Shown: positions 9,570 to 18,314, counted from the first letter of the stretch. The stretch is 64,000 nucleotides of DNA from Thermoanaerobaculia bacterium (GCA_022071945.1 JAJVIN010000011.1:10921-74920); one strand, 5' to 3'. The notes: generated from the letters alone by a model not told the origin. Numbers and translations: made by a program.

Positions 9570-11201
9570 TCAGCTCCGGACGTAGACCTCGTAGGTGTAG
9601 ACGACCTTCTTCTCTTCCCCGCTTTTCACGTCCACTTCCCACACGACGGCGTGCCTGGGGTTCACCCTCCTCAATCCCTGAGCCGTCTTGGTGTCCTTCC
9701 CCTCTGGCTCCATCGTCAGCAGACGGCCCGAGAGTTCCTTTCGGATCTCGACCCGCGCGCCCTGAGCCATCCTGCTCCGAAGCCTGAGCTCGCCCTTGAC
9801 CTTGACGAGGTCGTACGAACTGCCGTGAAACGTCGCGGCGTTCCGCTTCCGTTCGAGCTCGATCTCGGCCCTCTCGGCAACGAGATTCAGGGCCTTGTTG
9901 ATCCTGATCGTCGCCTCCGCTCCCCGAGGCGTGTAGGCGCAGATGTCCTGTCCGGCGATCCGGCCTTCCTTGACGAACTGGGCGGGCGCCGTCGTCAGCG
10001 GCATGTTCAGGGTGTTCGTCATGCGGCAGCAGTGCCAGACCTCCTCGGCGGGCTCTGTCTCTCCCATGCGCCGTTCGGACTCGTCCAGCCCGTCCGGGAT
10101 GCTCCACGTGTAGATGTGCCGGTACGGCAGGCTCGCCTGTAGAAAGACCGTATCGGCCCGGCCCCCCTTCCGAAGCGAGAAGCCCGGAATCGAATAGAAG
10201 AAGAGGTCTTCGGATGAGACCCCCTCGACATCCGAAAGATCCGCGAGGGCGAACCCTCCTTCGGACTGGGACGGGGCGAGGACGTTCGAGAGGACGGCCT
10301 GCTGGGTCAAAACGCCGGGACGCGCCGCTCGGCCCCGGGCCCAGGGCGAGGACTCACCTGCCACCGCCGACAGGAAGTCCGACAGGCTCTGCTTGAGATT
10401 CATCGGACTCGTCACGTCGCCGAACTTGACGTTCGGGAATCCCGTCACGAGCTCGAGAGTCACGTTCTCGAGGTCCGTCAGCTCGTTGATCACGGAGGCC
10501 TTTGCGCTGAAGCGGGCCATCTTGGCGTCGCTGATGTCGATCAGGTAGCTCGGGGCCCACGTGAAGCCCTTCGCGAGATACGAGACCCGAACGGACTCGG
10601 CGGAGGAGGGCTGGGCCAGCTGCAGACGAAGGACGGGAACCTGCCGGTTCGTCGTCGCCGCGATCACGGCCTCCTTCCCCACGACCTCGGCCCGCGACAG
10701 GGCCTGGGGATTGACGGCAACGATCCCTTCCGTCGTCTGGATCAAGACCGCTCCGGTCGCGGGCAGCGAAGACCGTGCCGAAGGCAGCCCGTCGGAGGCC
10801 GGAGCTTTGACGGTGGGAAGAACGACCCCCTCGATCACGTCCCTGTCGGCCTGAAGTCGCACCCGCCTTCCCGCATTCAGCAGCAGGAACTCCGCGATCG
10901 ACTGGACAGGTCCCTTCTCCGAGACGGTCTCCATGTCGGCCTCGAGGGACTTGACCTTCAGGCTCTCCGGGTGCTCCAGCCAGAACGTCCCGTGACTCGG
11001 CACGGGGAGAGCCTCGATCCGGACCGTTTTCGCTCCCTTCGGCAGCGTGGCAGCCGCCTGGACATGCCCCAGGCCATTCTTGAACGCCGCGACCTTCTCG
11101 ACCTTGACCGCGGTGTCTTCCGCCCGCGCCGCAAGGCCGCCCGCGCAGAGGACCAAGAGGGTGAGAGAGCACACGAGACAGGCTGGAGCCGGGTTCTTCA
11201 T
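9570..11201 (-). CDS. Secreted DUF4139-type protein
   Basis: A 543-residue protein from ATG 11201, chosen because AAGGAGGGG lies just before it and a clean signal peptide follows (CLVCSLTLLVLCAGGLAARA); a longer frame to 11231 lacks such context. Blocks such as FKNGLGHVQAAATLPKGAKT and VSYLAKGFTWAPSYLIDI, plus the segment on modified N-terminal beta-sheets, match the DUF4139 proteins, beta-rich envelope proteins of unknown role. It ends in a beta-strand-like stretch (VVYTYEVYVRS) suggesting a compact C-terminal domain. Divergent from the lipoprotein cluster across 101 bp. Confidence 0.7.
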   Translation of the reverse strand: MKNPAPACLVCSLTLLVLCAGGLAARAEDTAVKVEKVAAFKNGLGHVQAAATLPKGAKTVRIEALPVPSHGTFWLEHPESLKVKSLEADMETVSEKGPVQSIAEFLLLNAGRRVRLQADRDVIEGVVLPTVKAPASDGLPSARSSLPATGAVLIQTTEGIVAVNPQALSRAEVVGKEAVIAATTNRQVPVLRLQLAQPSSAESVRVSYLAKGFTWAPSYLIDISDAKMARFSAKASVINELTDLENVTLELVTGFPNVKFGDVTSPMNLKQSLSDFLSAVAGESSPWARGRAARPGVLTQQAVLSNVLAPSQSEGGFALADLSDVEGVSSEDLFFYSIPGFSLRKGGRADTVFLQASLPYRHIYTWSIPDGLDESERRMGETEPAEEVWHCCRMTNTLNMPLTTAPAQFVKEGRIAGQDICAYTPRGAEATIRINKALNLVAERAEIELERKRNAATFHGSSYDLVKVKGELRLRSRMAQGARVEIRKELSGRLLTMEPEGKDTKTAQGLRRVNPRHAVVWEVDVKSGEEKKVVYTYEVYVRS

Positions 11202-11302
11202 GGGACCCCTCCTTCGGGTGAGAGATCTCACAGTCTAGACCGCCGGGCCCCGGGTTCCCGCCTGACAATGAGAGAGGTGCAGAATAGTCCCGGGAGACAG
11301 CC

Positions 11303-14300
11303 ATGAGATGTGCGCGATCCCTGCGCAGCCTGGGAGTCTTGGTCCTCATCGGACCCCTTGCCTCCTCGTGCAACAGGCTTCCGTGGAAGTTCTCGAAGGG
11401 GGCCACGCCCGCCGTGACCCCGTCCCCGGCAGCCGCCTCGGACCCAGACGCCAAGTCCCGGATCGAGGCCTCCTGGAAGGAAACGGCGAAGGCGCTGGAG
11501 AACGAGAAAAAGGCCGAGAAGAAAGAGACCGCCCCGGAGAGGGTCCCCTTCGACGTCGAGGCCTTCGCCGCAAAGAACCCGCCCCCCGAGACCTCGCGAT
11601 TCGCTCCGATCGGCTCGATCAGGGCTTCCGCCAGGCAGGAGGCCCGATTCGACGCCCCCGGAATCAGCATCTCCCTCTCCAGGGGCTCCCTGCCGGAAGG
11701 CACGGACCTGCCCGTGGCAAAGCTGGAGGCGGCCGACTCGCGGATTCGCGCGGCCCAGGCCGAGGGCAAGCCCGTCCTGCCCGTCGGGCCGATCCTCGAA
11801 GTTGGCCCACCCGGCCACGGCACGATCCGCTTGCAGGCCCCCGCCGAGGTGGTCCTTTCTTACTCCGACCCCCCCGAAGAAGCGGGAGGACGGCTCGTCA
11901 TCGCCACGTACGACGAGAAAGCAGGCGAGTGGCGGCCTCTGCCCACGACCGTCGACGAAGCCACTCACACCCTCCGTGCCCGCACCCCTCACTTCTCGGT
12001 CATCGGCGCCATCCTCGTCGGGCTCATCATCGGGCTCCCTCCGTCTTGGGCCTACATCAACTGGGACTATCTCAGCTCGTCGTACTGCATGGACTCGCCG
12101 AGCCAGGCCTTCGGCGTTTGCTGGCGAACCGATGCGGAGGCGCCGTCGGGGCCTTCCATCGCCGTGCCCTACAGGACGTGGTACGGCGGCACGTCCAGCT
12201 GGAATGTCCCCCAGTACGTCATCTCGCTGACCCAGTTCATGGAGCAAACCAGGACCTTCCTGCTGGATCCCTCCCACAGGTTCAAGGTCCCGGGTTCCAA
12301 GGTCTGGATCTACATCCGCAACCTCCCGGCGGGCACGGACGCCGAGCGCAACAGGAAGCTGACCGGGACGTCCTACATCGTCGTCGACAACACCCTGCCG
12401 ACGGACACACTGCAGACGGCCGCCCCTCACGAGTACTTCCACCTCTGCCAGGACCAATACCGGACCGGCGACGAGCAGGGCTGGTGGCCCGAGGCGTCCG
12501 CTCTCGCGATCGAGAACGAGGTCTTTCCCCAGAATCTCGAGTGGCTGAGGAGCTACTTCACCTCCCCGCGCAACGGCCTTGCGACGATCGAGGAGAAGCT
12601 GGAGACGGCCTCCCCCCAGCACGGGTACGAGGAGGGGGTCTTCGCCAAGTTCCTCATTCGCACGCACGGCGTCGACATCCTGCGCCAGATCTACGAGAGA
12701 TATGCGGCTCCCCAGCCCTTCGTGAGCGCGTATCAGTCGGTCCTGACGGCTCCCGCGACCGTCTCGTCACAGTGGAAGCGCTACGCGAGCGGAATCGTCG
12801 AGCCGAACGGCGGGGGGTTCCTCAGACCCGACGAGCTCCAGGCCCTGAATCGGGAAGGGCTGCGCGCCGCGACACCAATCTCCCTGAGCCGATCCGTCCC
12901 GATCCAGCGCTTCTCGCGCGCAAACGCCCCGCTCTCCGCGTACCTCTACAGGCTGCGGATACCCGACTCCGAGCTGGCGGCCTCAACGGACGGAGAACCG
13001 AGATTCGGTCCCCTCATCGTGCGATTCCAGGCCGGCGGAGACGACGACGAGCTCCACGCCTCCTTCAGCAACACACCCGACCCACAATTCAAGCCCGACC
13101 AGCAGCGAAGGGTCCGGACGTTCACAAAGGCCGATGCCGAGAAGTCCTTCGACGTCGGAACTCTGGGTCTTTCTCCCTCCGGACGCGTCGACCGCGCCTA
13201 TCTCTGGCTCGTCGACGCGACGTCCACGGACACAGGTGACGAGAACGAGATGCAGGCGATCTGGCTGATGCCTCCGCAGCAGCTGCAGATTCAGAAGGAC
13301 CCCAACCCCGACAGCGGGACTCCCTGGAAACTGTCGTGGCAGCCGAGCCCCCTCGCTTCCTTCGGCGGGGGCGGACGGCCCGCTTCCCCCGCGACAGGCG
13401 CCCTGCCCGCGGGGATCACTCAGGGAGAGCTCGTCGTGCCATTCGACGGCTACGTCGTGTACCGCCGGAAGGACCCCAACGGCCCCCCCGAGGAGGTCAA
13501 GAAGACGCAACAGCCCGAAGTCCAGCTGACCTCGGCCGAGGCCGGCGGCGCGGGCGCCTGCTATTCCTTCGCCGTGACGACCAAGCTCTGGGGAGTCGAG
13601 GGACGCTCGGAAAGCGAGAAGAGCAAGTGGCTCGCGATCCGGCCCGACATCGCCGGCTTTGAAGTCAAGGGGTCCGTCGACAAGAAGAAGGACGGGAGCT
13701 TCGTCCTCAGAGCAGAGGCGAAGGAAGACAACTCGGGAGTTCACGAAATCGAGGTTCTCGTCGAGATCGGGGGCCGGACGGAGTCGAAGACGAACCGGGT
13801 CGTCAACACCAGCGAGCGCGTGGCGGGACGGCCCGTTCGCCCCAAGGAGGACCCCTTCCTCTGGCAGCCCGGCAAGGACTGGAAGCCCGGCACGCCCTTC
13901 CGCGTCGTGGCTCGCGCCTGGCTCGTTTCGAAGAGCAACCCCTGCTACGACGAGCAGAAGCACTTCAAGGAGGTCGAGATCGGAAGCGGTGCCATCGGTG
14001 AATCCAAGGACGGAGACAACGAGCCCGAAGCCCCGGGCGTTCCGGGCATTGTCCAGGCCACGGTCGATCCCGTGGAGGAGAAGCGGCTCTCGAAGTACGT
14101 CGTCTACGTGACTCCGAACGTCTGCAACTTCGTCAATGTCGCGACCGTGAGGGACTTCGAACGCAAGGAACTGACGGGCGGGCGGGACTGCGGAGGTCCC
14201 GATCCGACCGTCCCCGTGATCAAGGAGCAACTCCTCGGGCCGTTCGAGACCGGGGACGAGGCCTGGAAGGCTTTCTGCGCGCAAGGTTCGGAGAAGATCT

Positions 14301-14404
14301 ACGCACCCAACATCGATCCGTGGGCGAGCTGGTACGTGACTTTCAGGGGGAAGCGCTACTCGCTCCACTTCGACAATTGCCGGGAGCTGCCTCGTGTCCG
14401 CTAG
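11303..14404 (+). CDS. Large lipoprotein with ZU5-like region and HExxH metalloprotease motif
   Basis: A 1033-residue protein with a signal peptide and lipobox LASSC (Cys23), so probably anchored to a membrane from outside the cytoplasm. Residues about 115-235 resemble a ZU5-type beta domain (SISLSRGSLPEGTDLPVAKL, then GEWRPLPTTV). A hydrophobic stretch at 233-247 may be buried. At 376-380 is HEYFH, followed by a Gln-rich stretch and WWPEASALAIENE with E397: the zinc pattern of gluzincin proteases. The rest (residues 430-1033) is mainly fibronectin-like beta sheet. I infer a surface metalloprotease, substrate unknown. The next gene overlaps its end by 11 bp. Confidence 0.6.
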   Translation: MRCARSLRSLGVLVLIGPLASSCNRLPWKFSKGATPAVTPSPAAASDPDAKSRIEASWKETAKALENEKKAEKKETAPERVPFDVEAFAAKNPPPETSRFAPIGSIRASARQEARFDAPGISISLSRGSLPEGTDLPVAKLEAADSRIRAAQAEGKPVLPVGPILEVGPPGHGTIRLQAPAEVVLSYSDPPEEAGGRLVIATYDEKAGEWRPLPTTVDEATHTLRARTPHFSVIGAILVGLIIGLPPSWAYINWDYLSSSYCMDSPSQAFGVCWRTDAEAPSGPSIAVPYRTWYGGTSSWNVPQYVISLTQFMEQTRTFLLDPSHRFKVPGSKVWIYIRNLPAGTDAERNRKLTGTSYIVVDNTLPTDTLQTAAPHEYFHLCQDQYRTGDEQGWWPEASALAIENEVFPQNLEWLRSYFTSPRNGLATIEEKLETASPQHGYEEGVFAKFLIRTHGVDILRQIYERYAAPQPFVSAYQSVLTAPATVSSQWKRYASGIVEPNGGGFLRPDELQALNREGLRAATPISLSRSVPIQRFSRANAPLSAYLYRLRIPDSELAASTDGEPRFGPLIVRFQAGGDDDELHASFSNTPDPQFKPDQQRRVRTFTKADAEKSFDVGTLGLSPSGRVDRAYLWLVDATSTDTGDENEMQAIWLMPPQQLQIQKDPNPDSGTPWKLSWQPSPLASFGGGGRPASPATGALPAGITQGELVVPFDGYVVYRRKDPNGPPEEVKKTQQPEVQLTSAEAGGAGACYSFAVTTKLWGVEGRSESEKSKWLAIRPDIAGFEVKGSVDKKKDGSFVLRAEAKEDNSGVHEIEVLVEIGGRTESKTNRVVNTSERVAGRPVRPKEDPFLWQPGKDWKPGTPFRVVARAWLVSKSNPCYDEQKHFKEVEIGSGAIGESKDGDNEPEAPGVPGIVQATVDPVEEKRLSKYVVYVTPNVCNFVNVATVRDFERKELTGGRDCGGPDPTVPVIKEQLLGPFETGDEAWKAFCAQGSEKIYAPNIDPWASWYVTFRGKRYSLHFDNCRELPRVR

Positions 14405-15005
14405 TTTCTTCCTCATCCTCGCGGCGGTGACGCCCCTGGCCGTCCGGGGCATCGCGCCGGGACAGTCGACGCGGGCCGACGTTCTCAAGGCCTTCGGCAA
14501 TCCCGTCAAGGCCGACTGCCGCAGGGAATGCGAGTTCAATCCCCAGCTCGACTCGAAGAAGATCGTGGTCCGTTTTTCCGGAGACACGGCCAAGGAGGTC
14601 GACGTGACCCTCGACAGGTGGGTCCGCCGCTCGGTCCTCGAGGAGGCCTGGAAGCTCCCGGCGCCCGACAGTGCCGGGAAGCGCGGTGGAGTCTGGCGAG
14701 AGGTGTACCAGGGCAAGGGAATTGTCCTGACGTTCCGCGGAGGAGGTCCGGAGAGCGGCGTCAAGGGGATCCGATATGCCTCGCCAGGATCGCTCGCCGT
14801 GGAGAAGTGGCTGGGCCTGGCGGGCCGCTCCCTGCTGATTCTGGGTTTGACGGGCGCGGCGGGTGCGGCCCTCGTCCTGACAATGAAGAAGAGAAGAGCG
14901 AAGGAAGCAGCCTCGCGGCCCACATGCCCTGCCTGCGGCCATCCTCCTCGCAAGAGAAACAGGTTCTGCACGCGCTGCGGAACCAAACTCGGGGTCGCGG
15001 AATGA
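14394..15005 (+). CDS. BamE-like membrane protein with C-terminal zinc ribbon
   Basis: A 203-residue protein starting at GTG 14394, inside the end of the preceding gene. After a signal-like segment (FFLILAAVTPLAV) comes IAPGQSTRADVLKAFGNPVK, which resembles the start of SmpA/BamE-fold domains. A single transmembrane helix (LLILGLTGAAGAALVLTM, about 141-158) is followed by a basic KKRRAK stop-transfer and a four-cysteine zinc ribbon (CPACGHP...CTRCG). The fold topology places the BamE-like part outside and the ribbon in the cytoplasm. Its stop overlaps the next start (ATGA). Function unknown. Confidence 0.6.
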   Translation: MSASFFLILAAVTPLAVRGIAPGQSTRADVLKAFGNPVKADCRRECEFNPQLDSKKIVVRFSGDTAKEVDVTLDRWVRRSVLEEAWKLPAPDSAGKRGGVWREVYQGKGIVLTFRGGGPESGVKGIRYASPGSLAVEKWLGLAGRSLLILGLTGAAGAALVLTMKKRRAKEAASRPTCPACGHPPRKRNRFCTRCGTKLGVAE

Positions 15006-16675
15006 AATCACGGTTCGTGGCGGACATGGGTCCGGGGCAGCCTCGCCTCGGTCTGGAGTTGATCGAGGACGAGATCACGATCGGGCGTGACCCGGCGTGC
15101 ACGATCTGCCTGGAGGCGGGCGGGATCTCGCGGATCCACGCGCGGCTGGTCAAGACCGCGCGCGGATACATGGTCCTCGACCAGAACAGCGTGAACGGGG
15201 TTTTCGTCAACGGAGAACGTGTTTCCCACCACCTCCTCGTGAGCGGGGACATCGTCCGGCTCGGAACGACGGACTTCACCTACACGGAAGAGGAGTCGCT
15301 CGACAAGACCGTCCTCGAGGCGGGCGCGACGGCCCGGCTCGAGGTGCCGGAAACAAAGGCCAGCCTCCGGCTCAGGGTGGAAAGCAGCCCGGTCACAAGC
15401 CTCGTCGACCGCGAGCTCGAGCTGTCAAAGGACGAGATCACGCTCGGGCGCGATTCCAGAAACGACATCGCGGTCCCGGACAAGAAGGTCTCGCGTCTGC
15501 ACGCCCGGATTCTGAGGGAGGGAGGAAAGTTCTTCCTCCTCGACAACCAGAGTGGCAACGGCACATTCCTTCGCGGCACCCGCATCGAGAAGGCCGAGAT
15601 CGTGTCCGGAGACGTGATCCTGATCGGAGAAACCGTCCTCGAGGTTCTGGGAGGGCCTCGAGCCCTCGGAGATCAAAAACAGATGCGGGTGACGGCGCCG
15701 CTCAGGCTCGAGACCTTCGAGGCCCCTCCGACGCCCGTGGCCCCGGTCGCGCTCGCCCAAAGGCCCGCGGCTCTCCCTTCGCCACCGATCGAGCGGCCCC
15801 ATCCCGCCCCGGCGCCCCTTCCTGCAAAGAAGCCTGCAGTCGAGCCCCCGGCGGGACCGCCTCCGAGGCTCGCGGCGCCCGCGCCGGAGCCTCCGGCCCC
15901 TCCGCCTCGCTTCGGGCCCCGGGAGCTCCCCCAGGAAGTGAAGCTCCCTCCTCCTCCCCCTCCACCGGCGTACTCGGCCGCTCCTCCGCTTCCCGAGAAA
16001 CGGGTGACGGCCCCGGCCCCCCCGCCCCCTCCGCCGCCAATGGAGCGATTCGACGCGCCACCGCCGGCCGCGATCCCGGCCGCCCCAGACCAGCCGGCCC
16101 CGGTTCCCCGAGATCCGGGCGGGGCTCCCCTCGCCATCGCCCTCATTGCCCTCCTGCTCGGGCTCCTCGCTTCCCTGGCGATCGTGCCCCTCTCGGAACC
16201 TCTGACCCGAGCTTCCGGCATCTCCGGCGTCGCGGAGCCCCCTCATCCCCGCGCCATCGCCGCCCTCGCGGTCGCGATCCTCTTTGCCGTGGCCTCGCTC
16301 TGGGTCTTTCTTGCCCTTGTGTGGAGCACCCTGGCCGTCAAGACCGGGACGCGGAATCCGTGGATGGCCTGGATCCCGATCCTCAACGCCGTGCTTCTCT
16401 GCAGGATCGCCAGGCGCCCGGCCTGGTGGGTCGTCCTCCTCTTCATTCCCCTCGTGAACATCGTCGTGGTGCTCATGATCTGGATGGCCATCGCTCGGCT
16501 CCGGGGCAAGCCCGTCTGGCTCGGCATCTTGACCATCGTGCCCGTCGCGGGCTTCTTCGCGATGCTGGCCCTCGCGGCGGGACCCGCTGGCCTTCAAGCC
16601 GCCTGTCAAGGATGCGGCGCCTTTCCGGAGCCTGGCGACCTCCACTGTGGAGCCTGCGGAACCGCCCTCGATTGA
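15002..16675 (+). CDS. Double-FHA membrane protein with C-terminal zinc ribbon
   Basis: A 557-residue protein starting at ATG 15002 in a 4-bp overlap; the open frame extends further upstream antisense-free but without start signals. FHA domain 1 (about 20-95) has IGRD, SRIHA and NSVNGVFVNG; FHA domain 2 (about 140-215) has LGRD, SRLHA and QSGNGTFLRG, so both keep the residues that bind phosphothreonine. A long proline-rich linker (about 225-375) leads to several transmembrane helices resembling DUF5684 (NPWMAWIPILNAVLL, then the repeat-like LLFIPLVNIVVVLMIWMA) and a CQGCG...CGACG ribbon. It should sense phosphorylated partners at the membrane; no kinase gene is nearby. Confidence 0.8.
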   Translation: MKSRFVADMGPGQPRLGLELIEDEITIGRDPACTICLEAGGISRIHARLVKTARGYMVLDQNSVNGVFVNGERVSHHLLVSGDIVRLGTTDFTYTEEESLDKTVLEAGATARLEVPETKASLRLRVESSPVTSLVDRELELSKDEITLGRDSRNDIAVPDKKVSRLHARILREGGKFFLLDNQSGNGTFLRGTRIEKAEIVSGDVILIGETVLEVLGGPRALGDQKQMRVTAPLRLETFEAPPTPVAPVALAQRPAALPSPPIERPHPAPAPLPAKKPAVEPPAGPPPRLAAPAPEPPAPPPRFGPRELPQEVKLPPPPPPPAYSAAPPLPEKRVTAPAPPPPPPPMERFDAPPPAAIPAAPDQPAPVPRDPGGAPLAIALIALLLGLLASLAIVPLSEPLTRASGISGVAEPPHPRAIAALAVAILFAVASLWVFLALVWSTLAVKTGTRNPWMAWIPILNAVLLCRIARRPAWWVVLLFIPLVNIVVVLMIWMAIARLRGKPVWLGILTIVPVAGFFAMLALAAGPAGLQAACQGCGAFPEPGDLHCGACGTALD

Positions 16676-16799
16676 GATCCGGACCGCGAGCTTTTCTCGG
16701 CAAGTGAGGAGGTCTTCAGCTCTGCCCGTGGCGCGCCCTGACAGCGAGGATGGAAGGGACAGACGCCGTGCTCCCGCGAGGACGTCTTAAACTCTACCC

Positions 16800-18314
16800 A
16801 TGGCGCGCCAGATCTCCCCGAGACTTCGTGGACTGCTGGCCGTAACCGCTCTGGCCCTCCTGGTCTCGGCCTATCTGAAGGCGAGCGCCCACGAGAACGG
16901 CCTGAAGATCCTGCCCGAATCGGAACGGGGGTACCGGCGACTCATCCTCGGACTCGACCCGAACGAGACCAAGTTCTTCATGCTCCCCTCCACGGAGTCC
17001 TTCGACCCGAAAAGCACGGACCCGAGGGTGAGACTCCTCAGACGCCAGCTGTACTGGATCAATTTCGAGCTCTTGCACGGGGACATCCTGCGCGCCGTCC
17101 CCTCCTACACACGCTTCTTCGTCGCCGTTCCGGATCCGAGGTTCCATCCGGCGTCGATGGGAAATGAGCAGGAGGTCTTCGAAGACTACCTTCAGACCCG
17201 AATCGGCTGGACGGCGCAGCAGATCAGGGACCGGGTCTTCTACTTCAAGACGCCCGTCGCCATTGCCTTCGCTCAGGACTTGGCAGAGCCCCTCGGTCTG
17301 GACGCGAGGGGGCGGCTGGTCTTGGCCCTCGGCGAGGATTCCGACACGATCTACCAGGAAGGGCTGGGAGCTCTCGTCAAGGCTTTCCCGAACGACTTCG
17401 CGCTTCGGACTCTGAGCGGCATCAACACCGAGGGCGGAGACATCGAGATCGTCTGGCTTCCCGACCTCCGTCCGGCCCTCTTGGTCGGCCACCACCGGAT
17501 CCTGCGCACCATCGAGCGGAAGACCGGCATCAACTACCAGGGCCGTCCCATGCCCGACGCGCAGATCGCGGCCGCGAGGAGCTCCTTCAAGAACGCCTTC
17601 TTCGGACTCGAGACGATCATCGTGAACGAGGGGGGCCTTCGCTCCCCGACCCTGACCTCCGACGACCTCTTCCACTCCGACATGATCGTGAACATCGTCC
17701 GGGGAAAGACGGGCCCCGTGGCCTTCATCCCGAGCTTCGAGAAGGGAGTCGTGGACGCCACGACCCTCACGCCGGTTTCTCCCGAGGTCGTGGCACGCGC
17801 CCAGAGGGTCTACGACAGGGTCGCGGGCGAGCTGTCGAGGCGCGGATACGCAATTGCCCGGCTCCCCCTGGTCGATCATCCGACCCGCAACCCCGTCAAC
17901 GTCGGGAAGTTCGTCGATCCATCCGGCCAGCAGCACGTTCTCCTCGGGAAGTACCCTTTTCACCTTCCCTACAAGGGCCGCAACGCTCAGAAAGAGCTGC
18001 AAGAGGCCCTCGATCAGCTCGACCGTTCAGTCAACACCTGGCGGCAGAACGCTTCCGACCAGAACTGGCGCGCGGTGACGGGCACCCTCGGCTCGATGTG
18101 GCTCCAGTTCGACCGTGCCGCCTCGAGTCCGAACCCCAATTTCGACGCCCAGGCGCGCATTTACGAGTCCCACGGCGTCCGGCCGATCGCCGTTCCAATC
18201 TACCCGACCGGCGAGGGCGGTCTCCACTGCCTGGCCCTCACATCCGGCCGTCCGACCAGCGGCGTGGCGGCCCCCGGCAACTTCCTCAGGACCTCGAGCG
18301 GGCGTCAGCCCTGA
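16800..18314 (+). CDS. Membrane-anchored pentein-fold (guanidino-group-modifying enzyme-like) protein
   Basis: A 504-residue protein with an N-terminal anchor (LLAVTALALLVSAYL, 12-26). Three blocks match the catalytic layout of arginine deiminase, agmatine deiminase, DDAH and related penteins: EGGDIEIV with D214, HSDMIVNIV with H292 and D294, and GEGGLHCLAL with C477 near the C terminus. Spacing fits the superfamily, though the protein is longer than free deiminases (about 370-410). If active it would hydrolyse or transfer a guanidino group outside the cytoplasm. No known subfamily is obvious. It is 124 bp after the FHA gene on the same strand and may be co-transcribed. Confidence 0.7.
   Translation: MARQISPRLRGLLAVTALALLVSAYLKASAHENGLKILPESERGYRRLILGLDPNETKFFMLPSTESFDPKSTDPRVRLLRRQLYWINFELLHGDILRAVPSYTRFFVAVPDPRFHPASMGNEQEVFEDYLQTRIGWTAQQIRDRVFYFKTPVAIAFAQDLAEPLGLDARGRLVLALGEDSDTIYQEGLGALVKAFPNDFALRTLSGINTEGGDIEIVWLPDLRPALLVGHHRILRTIERKTGINYQGRPMPDAQIAAARSSFKNAFFGLETIIVNEGGLRSPTLTSDDLFHSDMIVNIVRGKTGPVAFIPSFEKGVVDATTLTPVSPEVVARAQRVYDRVAGELSRRGYAIARLPLVDHPTRNPVNVGKFVDPSGQQHVLLGKYPFHLPYKGRNAQKELQEALDQLDRSVNTWRQNASDQNWRAVTGTLGSMWLQFDRAASSPNPNFDAQARIYESHGVRPIAVPIYPTGEGGLHCLALTSGRPTSGVAAPGNFLRTSSGRQP

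Follow-up and report, generated by a model that had tools for sequence, protein, structure and literature searches.

ZU5/GAIN-like domains are familiar above all from receptors of animals and from proteins of cell death. PIDD, for example, self-cleaves between HF and S right behind each of its ZU5 domains, and CARD8 and NLRP1 do so between SF and S (PMC3210808). Autoproteolysis has also been proposed for the bacterial ZU5 domains of surface proteins (PMC3482391). The gluzincins, which include the neutral metalloprotease 7bb8, the clostridial collagenases (M9), DUF6055 proteins and flagellinolysin, have in common an HExxH motif and a downstream Glu. Cytoplasmic FHA domains on membrane proteins are found in GltG, a gliding protein, and in FhaB/FipA. 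We know of no protease in the GltG or FhaB/FipA families, and to our knowledge little is known of the outputs of Ser/Thr kinases in Acidobacteriota. In the literature searched, no description was found of an FHA or zinc-ribbon/GYF head joined through a membrane segment to an HExxH metalloprotease.

The locus considered here lies in a stretch of 64,000 nucleotides (the window) from a Thermoanaerobaculia bacterium (GCA_022071945.1, JAJVIN010000011.1:10921-74920). The window is part of contig C27 of a 6.17 Mb genome in 69 contigs. Four genes follow one another on the plus strand. Gene A (11303-14404, with the stop codon at 14402-14404) is read from the open reading frame and its sequence as a protein of 1033 amino acids. 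Gene B (14394-15005) starts with GTG at 14394, stops at 15003-15005 and encodes 203 residues; gene C (15002-16675) starts with ATG at 15002 and encodes 557. The last, gene D (16800-18314, ATG at 16800), encodes a pentein-like protein of 504 residues with a signal segment. The borders given by an earlier, sequence-only reading of this DNA are exact: A and B overlap by 11 bp, B and C by 4 bp (ATGA), and 124 bp separate C from D. On balance we favor a reading of A, B and C as one envelope unit, in which FHA and zinc-ribbon adaptors on the inside would set the position or the activity of a metalloprotease.

The product of gene A can be divided, from its reading frame, a sub-cutoff match to NCBIfam NF045524 and homologue alignments, into a lipoprotein-type signal (C23), a ZU5/GAIN-like domain, a gluzincin-like metalloprotease domain and a beta-rich C-terminal part. 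The HEYFH motif at residues 376-380 (12428-12442, plus strand) supplies the predicted zinc ligands and catalytic Glu, and E397 in WWPEASA (12491-12493, plus strand) is the predicted third zinc ligand. Both had been claimed earlier and both are in the sequence. They are also conserved: HExxH and a later Glu occur in all 23 A homologues inspected and form invariant columns in an 11-row alignment. In the alignments of A homologues a Gln and a Tyr downstream of HExxH are almost fully conserved as well.

Assignment of this domain to a family is less sharp. Residues 350-501, the HExxH region, match NF045524, the "MXAN_6640 family putative metalloprotease", with E=2.9e-14 and 53.5 bits, which falls far short of the 140 bits set as curated cutoff; A homologues tested against the same cutoff score 35.1 bits or less, most of the fused ones matching weakly. 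No mention of MXAN_6640 was found in the literature searched. The earlier description of the cluster as undescribed is thus nearly right, the sub-cutoff match of A being the exception. A profile of the A family gave weak matches to PDB sequences, the neutral metalloprotease 7bb8 at E=0.0019 and clostridial collagenases at E=0.08-0.4. DUF6055 and flagellinolysin are matched weakly as well. A differs from all of these gluzincins in its other N-terminal parts and its membrane anchor. The core of A was modeled from five sequences with a pLDDT of 48 and a pTM of 0.45, and a PDB fold search with this weak model gave nothing significant. Its GAIN (8ikj), ankyrin ZU5 (3ud2) and neutral protease (4ger) entries were discounted as evidence, the best E being only 0.1. 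Motif and profile matches support A as a gluzincin-like enzyme and putative protease, with no clear family membership.

The ZU5/GAIN-like domain of A covers approximately residues 105-232 (11615-11998, plus strand) and was recognized with an 11-member profile, in which the terminal His is invariant. Against 177,635 PDB sequences the best four matches of this profile were ankyrin ZU5 domains (E=0.05-0.19); Pfam models gave no match to the domain in the A family. Its C-terminal end carries a cleavage-type motif, H-[FL]-[STC], as H230-F231-S232. More broadly the end resembles the H-[FLA]-[SCT] of ZU5, GAIN and FIIND domains (PIDD, CARD8, NLRP1, GPCR GAIN and bacterial surface ZU5), with A reading exactly HFS, and we take it to resemble the site at which GPCR GAIN domains are cleaved. 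In SLH-type surface proteins of Fermentithermobacillaceae the domain is found again, there with HFT at its end. The His is kept in nearly all A homologues and Ser, Cys or Thr follows two positions on in most. In contrast to the described domains, the Phe is not conserved in the A family (Leu, Ala or Asn replace it in many homologues), a few members lack the Ser/Cys/Thr, those without a canonical site reading HNG, HNY, HNF or KNS, and self-cleavage is here a prediction. Because PIDD, CARD8 and NLRP1 are cleaved at such positions and autoproteolysis has been proposed for bacterial ZU5, the HFS of A is a predicted self-cleavage site, with the cut between F231 and S232.

Genes B and C encode the candidate adaptors. 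B consists of an N-terminal hydrophobic segment, an extracytoplasmic domain with a BamE-type motif, one transmembrane segment by hydropathy (146-164, followed by KKRR) and a cytoplasmic zinc ribbon. The ribbon is well founded, its Cys residues 178/181/192/195 matching Pfam PF13248 at E=2.4e-7. The BamE-like start claimed for B finds no support beyond a motif-level match: PF04355 stays below threshold (12.3 of 23.2 bits, E=0.15) and covers residues 12-40 only. A single-sequence structure model of B (pLDDT 45) was uninformative on this point, and no full-length homologue of B was found in the Acidobacteriota genomes searched. In C, two FHA domains are followed by a Pro-rich linker, four transmembrane segments (DUF5684) and a C-terminal zinc ribbon. 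The FHA domains, both identified with Pfam, are at 15059-15271 (G000:C27:25994-26185) and 15437-15628 (G000:C27:26357-26548) on the plus strand. Both are intact, as had been proposed, with the Arg, Ser, Arg/His and Asn-Gly positions kept in each and an E of 1.2e-36 for PF00498 over the whole protein. The several helices noted before correspond to four hydrophobic segments and a DUF5684 match at E=3.7e-13. As for the ribbon of C, Cys 535/538/549/552 are present, although the Pfam ribbon match is sub-threshold (E=0.01). The best C homologues (G001, G003 and G004) are FHA proteins, none of which adjoins an A-type protease; G003 and G004 carry RDD tails in place of DUF5684. NCBIfam matches to C, those of GltG and FhaB/FipA included, are confined to FHA, and that of the GltG FHA model (E=6.3e-29) is an FHA-level match.

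A-like proteins are sparse. They were detected in at least 4 of 61 near-relative genomes, at least 10 of 149 genomes of the class (E<=1e-5) and at least 16 of 396 genomes of the phylum (E<=1e-10); four candidates were scored per genome, and the counts are lower bounds. A contig profile search with A alone found no relative. With A and G006, its nearest relative, together, five loci were recovered: G006 itself, one distant protease and three surface proteins with only the ZU5-like part. The exact A-B-C order, for which co-occurrence had been the suggested check, is present in this genome only among the Acidobacteriota genomes searched. Of the two findings that the earlier reading had named as refuting, confinement of the neighborhood to one genome thus holds for the exact order, and a lack of HEYFH conservation does not hold.

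The association of FHA and zinc-ribbon domains with the protease nevertheless recurs in other forms. In a tree built from 23 protease cores, G006 is the sister of A (support 100/98); it has FHA, a transmembrane segment, the ZU5-like domain and HEYFH in one chain. This chain is split over two contigs at the protease, the N-terminal one being JAEUQS010000097.1 of an Acidobacteria MAG; we infer that the two are one gene, because their query coordinates adjoin. The presence of G006 in the family also places the host of the window in the phylum Acidobacteriota. In G020 (L045:9725-13288) an FHA domain, a zinc ribbon, a transmembrane segment, the ZU5-like domain and HELFH share a single frame of 1187 amino acids. 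An FHA domain followed by a single transmembrane segment also occurs in G133 (L076), G011 (L082), G211 (L113, with a zinc ribbon in addition) and G240 (L115), so that FHA is carried by 6 of the 23 family members (Pfam E from 7e-6 to 3e-18, or to 5e-18 without G006). These carriers are scattered over several separate parts of the tree, and such positions argue against one inherited FHA event. Other members bear other heads. A zinc ribbon without FHA heads G168 L116 and G211 L120. GYF_2 heads G020 L077 (by Pfam), G133 L075 (just under the cutoff) and, as judged from their sequences, L078 and L086; among the genomes, GYF_2 is read from sequence in G032. Plain secreted members that have no cytoplasmic head are G157, G168a and G020d.

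Two-gene forms have been observed as well. In G060, G133 and G163 the protease gene and its upstream neighbor, which encodes a transmembrane protein, overlap by 4 bp, and these upstream proteins share a transmembrane part with an invariant GQAYNGQP. Their N-terminus is intact and FHA-like in G163 (FHA-clan model, E=0.007) and, as judged by eye, in G133, whereas in G060 the contig breaks off short of it. A protease gene of G133 also stands divergent to an FHA-RDD gene, a multi-ribbon gene lies directly upstream of G168 L116, and in G020 the protease gene is directly followed by a ribbon-TM gene that matches PEGA near threshold. With fused proteins and recurring operon arrangements in relatives, the linkage is more than chance, and given the fused and two-gene forms in relatives the window is taken to hold a split, three-gene form.

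No kinase gene is in the cluster, as the sequence-only reading had said. PF00069 finds about 105 matches above cutoff in the genome, with none on contig C27, so a kinase can act in trans. It is plausible from the intact binding positions that C reads phosphothreonine. The fused FHA domains vary in this respect. They are intact in G020 and G240, have lost one phosphobinding position each in G006, G211 and G133d, and are most degenerate in G011; phosphobinding is therefore not universal to the design.

In the mechanism proposed, A would be an extracytoplasmic metalloprotease of gluzincin-like type, anchored by lipid and preceded by the ZU5/GAIN-like domain. B and C would be inner-membrane adaptors that contact A, and their cytoplasmic zinc ribbons, which may meet as the earlier reading suggested, and FHA domains would relay to the protease a signal from the cytoplasm, probably one of Ser/Thr phosphorylation. 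An FHA domain that binds its phosphorylated partner may change the position or activity of the protease, and the ZU5-like domain may self-cleave between HF and S and keep the protease tethered. Of the phospho-sensing complex over an outside protease that had been suggested before, the core gains from the recurrent FHA-protease fusions and the two-gene forms with 4-bp overlap; it is weaker on the BamE likeness and on D, and the exact triad was not met with again in the Acidobacteriota genomes searched. A wider proposal, that Acidobacteriota have an inside-out device in which cytoplasmic FHA readers or interchangeable zinc-ribbon/GYF heads work across one membrane span on a self-cleaving ZU5/GAIN-like ectodomain, which in turn gates an envelope metalloprotease, is tentative.

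The sidedness of this arrangement depends on how a hydrophobic stretch in A, FSVIGAILVGLIIGLPPSW (residues 231-249, 11993-12049, plus strand, by hydropathy), is read. It lies directly behind the His and may be buried, as a strand or a helix, or may span the membrane a second time. Similar stretches of about 19 residues follow the HF position in most A homologues, not in all. If this were a transmembrane helix, the protease would be cytoplasmic, together with the FHA domains and zinc ribbons. This is very improbable and has been mostly rejected on the hydropathy of homologues, since in G011, G211a, G133d and G168c the stretch is absent or below threshold and a single above-threshold hydrophobic region separates the cytoplasmic head from the protease; head and protease are therefore on opposite sides. 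The flanks behind the stretch tend to be acidic, and the PKD domains behind the G211 protease (E=1.7e-14) are consistent with the same placement. With the protease outside, the FHA and zinc-ribbon parts might still do no more than place a constitutively active enzyme at a kinase-marked or a division- or motility-related site of the envelope. FHA, zinc-ribbon and GYF_2 heads do swap at the same position, like interchangeable docking modules, and C is matched, at FHA level, by the FHA model of GltG, a protein of gliding. Such a role is doubtful rather than far-fetched; it leaves unexplained why in most members a ZU5/GAIN-like domain with a conserved His, and mostly Ser, Cys or Thr, stands between membrane and protease.

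Alternatively, B and C could be unrelated to A and co-transcribed with it by chance, with the FHA fusions reflecting a general mobility of FHA in FHA-rich Acidobacteriota. The restriction of the exact triad to one genome and the want of full-length B homologues fit this account. FHA matches are rare, however, with 7-20 in each of the seven genomes concerned, and yet FHA is found on those 6 of 23 members and in or beside the neighbor gene of at least three more. The chance of 6 in 23 comes to approximately 6e-12 to 1.5e-9 if members are roughly treated as independent and 0.2-0.5% of genes are assumed to carry FHA, a figure that is only a guide as the members are related. The nearest relative of A is fused and the operon with the 4-bp overlap recurs, and chance co-transcription is accordingly unlikely. 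The part of D in the set is hard to uphold. D could be a working part that modifies, for example, arginines of the protease or its substrate; it is on the same strand, 124 bp downstream of C, and has a signal segment. D gave no Pfam match and no match to PDB sequences. It has NTEGGD, FHxDM and GGxHC in common with a homologue of 44% identity, L052 in G012, and these we take to be the acidic, His and Cys active-site motifs of penteins, which fits D being a pentein and is not proof of it. G012, the only relative with D, gave no A-family match, and no D-like gene adjoins the fused family members read. A working role for D with A-C is quite improbable, and D, earlier counted with the set, is treated here as a neighbor.

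A protease family with FHA or zinc-ribbon heads offers a direct and testable route from phosphorylation in the cytoplasm to proteolysis outside the membrane. It ties a possibly self-cleaving ZU5/GAIN-like domain to transmembrane signaling in bacteria. If the tentative proposal is true, the Acidobacteriota would possess a previously unrecognized inside-out device that comes in fused, two-gene and three-gene forms.

Transcribed divergently from A, the gene of the lipoprotein with the predicted metalloprotease, and separated from it by 71 bp, is a gene (window 9570-11231, -) for a secreted-type protein with a sub-threshold match to DUF4139 (E=4.5e-6). Within A, a hydrophobic stretch (11990-12049) immediately follows the H[FLA][SCT] site that ends the ZU5-like domain. 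It is present in the majority of the homologues compared, not in all, and may be a tethered strand or a second TM. The same ZU5-like domain is found ahead of SLH-like repeats in Fermentithermobacillaceae surface proteins (L127, 1979-2395; L128; L130, 1142-1558), where its C-terminal end is DHFTVFAVMAK.

The 6.17-Mb genome has a large kinase set; of approximately 105 above-cutoff Ser/Thr protein kinase matches in a search of the whole genome, none is on the window's contig.

Zinc-ribbon membrane or multi-ribbon genes directly adjoin A-family protease genes at L116 (1811-4822 and 4845-5879, -) and L045 (13565-14542, +), and B, the window's zinc-ribbon membrane protein, resembles these. In three genomes, the protease gene is overlapped by 4 bp by a gene for an FHA-like/Pro-rich/TM protein (L112, 9016-9789, -; L073, 6480-7181, +; L044, 19622-19942, -). 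This protein, with its invariant GQAYNGQP, is undescribed.
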